DNA of 64,000 nucleotides from positions 496,001 through 560,000 of the forward strand of contig CAMUMG010000001.1 in assembly GCA_947089905.1 (NCBI GenBank), in the 5' to 3' direction. The position numbers and the translations under genes were made by a program. Shown here in pieces: positions 61,014 through 61,765 of the stretch. Each line of letters opens with the position of its first letter. Positions within the stretch are counted from its first letter, which is position 1. A model generated the notes under the pieces. It was not told the DNA's origin, did not search any database, and saw only the letters and a program-made list of their open reading frames with translations. Origin of the DNA: an uncultured Lachnospiraceae bacterium. Its GTDB lineage: Bacteria; Bacillota; Clostridia; Lachnospirales; Lachnospiraceae.

Positions 61014-61042
61014 TTGATTTTTCTTATCTCACATGATATAAT
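61014..61042 (+). promoter_or_regulatory. Promoter of the Cys-rich protein gene
   Basis: TTGATT (61014-61019), 17-nt spacer, perfect TATAAT (61037-61042), giving a leader of about 180 nt. A second weak extended -10 (TGGTATAAA) lies at 61119-61127. Confidence 0.75.
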
Positions 61043-61145
61043 AGGCAAAAGATAAACGCTGCAAAATTGATTTTAACTACCAGATATAGTAGGTATTCTA
61101 TAAATTTATATCTATATATGGTATAAAAATTTTGTAACCACCTTT

Positions 61146-61214
61146 ACGATTTGTGTCTGTGCGTTGCCTATCACAAAATCGTTATATTTTTTGTATATCA
61201 TAAAAAGCAACGCA
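61146..61214 (+). promoter_or_regulatory. Pseudoknot-like leader before the Cys-rich gene
   Basis: Stem 1 pairs 61146-61155 with 61172-61182 (10 bp, one bulge). Stem 2 pairs TGCGTTGC (61160-61167), which lies inside the stem 1 loop, with GCAACGCA (61207-61214), which ends 5 nt before the GAGG ribosome site. The order A-B-A'-B' is that of an H-type pseudoknot. Confidence 0.55.
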
Positions 61215-61229
61215 GAAATGAGGATTAGT

Positions 61230-61676
61230 ATGGGAATTTTGAATTCTGAATTAAATTATGATCTTGTACTTACGGATCTTGGAAAGTGTTGTATGGGAGA
61301 GGATGTCTGTGGTTCTTGTACAGGAAAACAATGTATTGTTGGCTATGCAAAATCTTGTATTACTAAATGTTTTAAAGAAGGAGTTACCTATATTGAAGAT
61401 GGAATGGAACATATTCCATTTACAGACTTTAAAGTATTTAATGTAGAAAACTTTGAATCTGGAATTGCGCATATTTTAAGGCAATGTAGATCTTGTAAGG
61501 AAAATCATTTTGAAAATTGTATTATTAATATTATCCGCAGTTGTTACGAAATTGGACTTTTTGGAGAAACTCAAAATTACGAGGGAAGTGCATTTCGTTA
61601 TTTAAATCAGATACATAATTCCCATCCTGAAACAGCGGCTGCTATTATTGAACTTTTTCATGCTTTTCAAGAATAA
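61230..61676 (+). CDS. Cysteine-rich conserved protein of unknown function
   Basis: 148 residues with 11 Cys: seven in the first 50 residues (positions 20, 21, 27, 30, 35, 43 and 47 in GKCCMGEDVCGSCTGKQC and YAKSCITKC) and four later (86, 89, 97, 105 in QCRSC, ENC and RSC). The spacing suggests metal or Fe-S binding. The C-terminal part is helical. I do not recognise a named family. ATG at 61230 was chosen because GAGG lies 6 nt upstream. Followed by a strong terminator and a PLD-family gene. Confidence 0.8.
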   Translation: MGILNSELNYDLVLTDLGKCCMGEDVCGSCTGKQCIVGYAKSCITKCFKEGVTYIEDGMEHIPFTDFKVFNVENFESGIAHILRQCRSCKENHFENCIINIIRSCYEIGLFGETQNYEGSAFRYLNQIHNSHPETAAAIIELFHAFQE

Positions 61677-61696
61677 TTTTTCTATAAAGCAATCTG

Positions 61697-61728
61697 AAAA
61701 AAGGCGTAAAAGCACGCCTTTTTTCATT
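61697..61728 (+). terminator. Terminator after the Cys-rich gene
   Basis: An 11-bp perfect stem AAAAAAGGCGT/ACGCCTTTTTT (61697-61707 with 61714-61724, 6-nt loop) ending in a T-run, 20 nt after the stop. Confidence 0.92.
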
Positions 61729-61765
61729 TTATTATAAAAACCCCTTGACAGAAATGAGGATTTTA

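Follow-up and report, generated by a model that had tools for sequence, protein, structure and literature searches.

A pseudoknot leader ending in a Shine-Dalgarno sequence in a Lachnospiraceae genome, probably one copy of a dispersed repeat

The 64,000-nucleotide (nt) stretch of DNA analysed here, called the window, comes from an uncultured Lachnospiraceae bacterium (assembly GCA_947089905.1, contig CAMUMG010000001.1, positions 496,001 to 560,000), whose genome (G000) comprises 3,060,996 bases on 23 contigs. Near the end of the window a gene for a Cys-rich protein is preceded, on the same strand, by a leader (61146-61223) in which complementary segments follow one another in the order A-B-A'-B', a pseudoknot that can be read directly from the sequence and that an initial annotation had already pointed out (Table 1). 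Stem 1 consists of 10 pairs and one bulged A, and stem 2 of 8 pairs. The same annotation placed the end of stem 2 five bases ahead of the Shine-Dalgarno (SD) sequence, which is correct for the core GAGG (61220-61223; the ATG is at 61230); the SD itself is longer than had been supposed, an extended AGAAATGAGG whose first base is also the final base of stem 2 and which would form pairs with the usual 16S tail at 9 of its 10 positions. When the upstream part was shuffled 60 times with dinucleotides preserved, no shuffle equalled the pseudoknot, while a nested-only fold of this stretch of the window is just mildly unusual (z -1.78, with 11 of 200 shuffles equally good).

Table 1. Features at the leader and its surroundings (window coordinates)
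Feature	Position	Strand	Basis or remark
Promoter-like TTGATT-17-TATAAT, TG ahead of second hexamer; RNA start ~61049	61014..61042	+	weak
Stem 1, 5' arm, ACGATTTGTG	61146..61155	+	sequence reading
Stem 2, 5' arm B, TGCGTTGC, inside stem-1 loop	61160..61167	+	sequence, shuffles, arm-swap test
Stem 1, 3' arm, CACAAAATCGT, one bulged A	61172..61182	+	sequence reading
A/T-rich loop (L3) between stem 1 and B'	61183..61206	+	sequence reading
Stem 2, 3' arm B', GCAACGCA	61207..61214	+	sequence, shuffles, arm-swap test
Extended SD, AGAAATGAGG, 3' end of element	61214..61223	+	sequence reading
Cys-rich protein, 148 amino acids (aa)	61230..61676	+	open reading frame; no Pfam or NCBIfam match
ACAGAAATGAGGAT, SD end of element without pseudoknot, 5' of phospholipase-D-like gene	61748..61761	+	weak: E 3.5, E 0.077

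The leader is one of many. A BLASTN search of the window genome returned seven matches: the leader itself, four other leaders (preceding purL, a chemotaxis receptor gene, clpX and a lipoprotein-like gene) and two copies of a different repeat, which lies upstream of it. A covariance model built from five leaders (R1) found 25 matches in the window genome at E<=0.1, and matches in 12 of 40 relatives. A second model (R2), built from 60 sequences with the SD included, found matches in 58 of the 298 family genomes at E<=0.01, where copy numbers are lower bounds since 17 candidates were scored per genome; across the order it matched 12 of 196 genomes, nine in the family and three outside, with G031 (E 2.7e-13) the single strong match among these three. 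In-depth R2 searches returned 43 matches in G188 and 42 in G132, the many short, near-alike copies per genome that characterize dispersed repeats. A third model (R3), built without the SD to avoid position bias and applied at E<=0.001, gave 60 hits in three genomes (17 in the window genome, 17 in G132 and 26 in G188), 59 of which were also found by the SD-bearing R2. The window genome holds 17-25 copies depending on the model. In a pattern scan of named genomes, the records among the matches listed were Lachnospiraceae or unplaced Clostridia-type. Thirteen weaker hits in the window genome resemble the element at its SD end only; twelve of these lack a pseudoknot and one has a pseudoknot at chance level.

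For all 17 full copies in the window genome, none of 60 shuffles equalled the pseudoknot. The comparative evidence from these copies is stronger than the shuffles. Covariation among relatives had been proposed at the outset as a check, and covariation among the copies bears the structure out: stem 2 has a pairing score of 24.29 over the 17 copies, and swapping arms between copies lowers it to 15.61 (standard deviation (sd) 1.12; at most 19.94 in 2000 shuffles). Elements were further grouped into classes with a B loop of 13, 15 or 16 nt. For the 64 unique sequences of the 13-nt class, pairing across the eight positions is 0.936 versus 0.834 with B' swapped (maximum 0.861 of 1000), and the B8:B'8 position pairs in 64 of 64, where shuffling gives a mean of 31.6 and a maximum of 44; both sides of this pair are changed in 29 cells. 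In the 15-nt class the corresponding values are 0.915 and 0.861 (maximum 0.909). Stem 1 is nearly invariant across copies in its six inner pairs (TTTGTG/CACAAA), and its three outer pairs show changes on both sides in 7, 3 and 7 sequences. Both stems therefore covary as expected of a structured cis-acting RNA, and the uncompensated disruption of both that the initial annotation had named as grounds for rejection was not found. Such compensation suggests that the pseudoknot matters at each site, presumably through selection acting there.

Stem 2 overlaps the first SD bases in most copies: in the 13-nt class it extends to the AGA of the SD, whereas in the window copy it stops at the first base. 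This capacity to mask the start of the SD, together with a stem-1 core conserved beyond the needs of base pairing, would be expected if one trans-acting protein, small RNA or alarmone bound stem 1 and its loop in all copies and so set the translation of scattered genes as a common regulon. We consider this unlikely. Strict sequence recognition is difficult to reconcile with three window-genome copies that fold despite quite different stem 1: L341 has CTGGTG/CACCAG in place of the usual core (arms AAGCTGGTG/CACCAGCTT), and in L050 and L058, where stem 1 differs as well, stem 2 still matches (for each, 0 of 60 shuffles). The patchy presence of the element in the family also argues against a regulon, as does the small number of targets common to different genera (four pairs with orthologous downstream genes across clearly different genera among 172 elements, by manual sorting).

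An open reading frame (ORF) of >=60 aa in sense orientation lies directly 3' of 55 of the 60 R3 hits. For the 44 fetched hits this ORF begins <=40 nt downstream in 41, the exceptions being one with a 59-aa ORF and two, L322 and L340, that look decayed; the other 16 hits, all in the window genome, include 14 with an ORF and two misses with 57 and 18 aa. In a wider set of 172 elements, chosen by a pattern that contains the SD, an ORF of >=60 aa follows 153, and several of the misses are at contig ends. The element was always in sense orientation in the hits examined. A same-strand ORF ends <=150 nt upstream of 79 of the 146 elements with enough upstream sequence, indicating that many elements lie inside operons, and sigma-70 -10 words show no clear peak upstream of the element.

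The downstream genes are unrelated to one another, and no conserved association with the genes of one pathway was found. Family models name as targets in the window genome ClpX, PurL, nicotinate phosphoribosyltransferase (pncB), SecG, polyphosphate kinase (ppk1), RmlA, a type II topoisomerase A subunit, prolyl-tRNA synthetase and a copper-chaperone-like protein, and in G188 GroEL; Pfam names a methyl-accepting chemotaxis protein (MCP), a short-chain dehydrogenase, a glycerophosphotransferase and a PPIC protein, and further names, such as rnc, dapA and serA, were assigned by eye from the translated sequences. This breadth bears directly on the idea, advanced in the initial annotation, that the leader is a ligand-binding translational riboswitch serving the Cys-rich gene, possibly one that senses metals. 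An H-type pseudoknot abutting the SD does recall the small translational riboswitches of the SAM-II, SAM-V and preQ1 classes, which carry such a pseudoknot in the 5' leader beside the SD. Those riboswitches differ from the present element, which is present dozens of times in a genome, ahead of genes unrelated to one another, and has no Rfam match: among 4227 Rfam families the leader reached no gathering score, riboswitches included, and a scan of the whole window gave just a tRNA. Low-threshold Rfam rows for the leader and four copies were dismissed as chance, the best always falling below the gathering score. Nor does the leader accompany its gene. Of 298 other genomes searched, nine, from other genera of the family, encode an ortholog of the Cys-rich protein (28-64% identity), and R2 has no match upstream of any of these nine orthologs; one match (E 0.85) lies elsewhere in L265, away from the upstream region of the ortholog, and one of the nine genomes, G016, carries the element 5' of other genes. 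No homolog of the protein was found on plasmids. A riboswitch tied to the Cys-rich gene, metal-sensing or otherwise, is thus scarcely credible, although a ligand common to all copies of the element may exist.

How the element came to precede so many unrelated genes is suggested by groEL of G188. There the element (E 4.2e-13) stands between ATTGGA and GGAGAATCATGG, while groEL in 20 of 20 congeners read is element-free, with a plain ribosome-binding site such as ATTGGAGGATGATTGAATCATGG; over these 21 loci R2 matches G188 alone, where its second row is a weak antisense match to the same site. Three more congeners gave no groEL match. The genus of G313 was considered as a further source of empty sites, and its congeners proved too distant. 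Traces of insertion may also be preserved within the elements. Many have a hairpin, P0, directly 5' of stem 1 (the window copy has none). Of 102 elements with P0, 58 have an SD-like word within the 15 nt upstream of it, whereas control windows gave 6, 13, 12 and 20 of 102; such words would be expected where an older SD had stayed behind upstream. Where copies are in tandem (L171, L095, L166, L309), each unit begins directly after the SD of the preceding unit; the L171 array has 3.1 copies of a 93-bp unit. These tandem copies and relic SDs point to gain by insertion. Loop L3 is also more alike within genomes than between them (0.478, versus 0.343 with shuffled genome labels; sd 0.0226, maximum 0.435) in a comparison of 92 segments from 22 genomes with labels assigned by hand.

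P0 often opens with GTG or TTG behind the SD-like word, raising the alternative that an upstream ORF or leader peptide begun in P0 controls the main gene. This seems very improbable, as the frame differs among copies, stops at varying places and in some cases enters the main gene, and as the window copy has no P0 at all. Further variation was seen: L166 (124-257) consists of tandem 37-bp units of a P0-like hairpin and SD without a pseudoknot, repeated GTTGGTTCTGCAAC-type hairpins are stacked just 5' of stem 1 in some G188 copies (L307, L313, L320), and three G188 copies (L316, L318, L320) have an extra hairpin within the B loop.

We hypothesize, with a probability of roughly 0.7, that a dispersed repeat of ~60-110 nt has been inserted at SDs in some Lachnospiraceae-type bacteria and that the leader is among its copies. 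From 5' to 3' the element comprises an optional P0, the stem-1 hairpin with B in its loop, an A-rich loop and B'; it ends in the SD AGAAATGAGG, followed after 5-7 nt by the start codon. Insertion in sense orientation at or directly after the SD of unrelated genes may be the general route of gain, the SD of the element replacing that of the gene, and compensating changes after insertion would then keep the pseudoknot. Because stem 2 abuts, and mostly overlaps, the first SD bases, the simplest role would be to set or buffer translation initiation, with the ribosome and stem 2 competing for those bases.

Genome-specific copies, tandem arrays and SD insertion are also what would be seen if the element were selfish only, with hairpins and a pseudoknot that, folded as DNA or RNA, serve its mover, and a 3' SD that renders insertion harmless. 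We regard this as doubtful: window-genome copies with diverged loops retain matched stem-2 arms, a match that decaying selfish copies would lose, although separate source copies could likewise account for it. Phage carriage as a means of spread was set aside, the viral collection yielding a single match (L297 7803-7861, ahead of a cation-ATPase-like gene by eye). A Y1 transposase (PF01797) is present in 5 of 8 element-bearing genomes searched, and its absence from three copy-rich ones speaks against it as the mover.

Several observations weigh against a dispersed repeat whose pseudoknot is maintained after insertion at SDs. No mobilising enzyme was found, PF01797 being absent from G188, G252 and G206 of the eight genomes searched; no clean target-site duplication was seen by eye; and groEL is the single empty site examined. 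In the 16-nt class to which the window copy belongs (36 unique sequences) the swap test is marginal (0.885 versus 0.870, the best of 1000 swaps reaching 0.885), as the sequences of that class are alike. The test is also not significant in G132 (12 of 17 parsed) or in G188 (23 of 26), where it has little power because the copies are nearly identical. Finally, the leader stands at the same gene in three close-species pairs as well as in the four cross-genus pairs among the 172 elements, indicating that some sites have long been kept; a few cross-genus pairs would be expected, by a rough estimate rather than a computed one.

In being short, non-coding and hairpin-forming, with many copies per genome, a genome-specific consensus and empty sites, the element resembles REP/BIME, ERIC, BOX, RUP, SPRITE and miniature inverted-repeat transposable elements (MITEs), as described in PMC2229807 and PMC3049150. 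Pneumococcal repeats, according to PMC3049150, are over-represented between convergent genes, that is, away from gene starts; the present element differs in lying at the start codon, in sense orientation in the hits examined, and in ending in an SD. Terminal inverted repeats with target duplication mark MITEs, and a linked Y1/RAYT transposase marks REP repeats; no terminal inverted repeats and no mover were identified here. With ribosomal-protein and other protein-bound leaders it has in common a structured leader over the ribosome site, but those lie ahead of the gene for the protein that binds them, whereas this element precedes unrelated genes. No description of it was found among the open-access papers listed, a scope that leaves out preprints, most subscription journals and the candidate tables of PMC8040213. 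That 2021 survey of RNA in the human microbiome reports thousands of candidates, and the motif may be among them.

Other features surround the leader. The promoter-like site is weakly supported, as 7 such sites were found against 5.6 expected by chance. Between it and the pseudoknot, at about 61058-61142, lies an AT-rich palindromic repeat with ends like AGCTGTTGCAAAATA and related copies at G000:C7 (L004) and G000:C1:234072 (L006), which looks like a separate, MITE-like family. A strong terminator-like hairpin (61695-61726) separates the Cys-rich gene from the phospholipase-D-like gene, and the SD-end sequence ahead of the latter resembles other weak hits in the window genome (most of L046-L060).

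Our best reading is that these leaders represent an undescribed RNA family in gut-associated Lachnospiraceae and a new family of dispersed repeats. One caution follows for annotation: a pseudoknot ahead of one gene should not be taken as the riboswitch of that gene. Mobile or dispersed repeats would be expected to avoid ribosome sites, and it is tempting to speculate, if only tentatively, that this is a self-spreading element that homes into SDs and installs a pseudoknot-caged SD, placing dozens of unrelated genes, among them groEL and purL, under shared structure-based control of initiation. If so, a family that supplies a folded, working ribosome site would be a direct, genome-wide route to rewiring the translation of essential genes.
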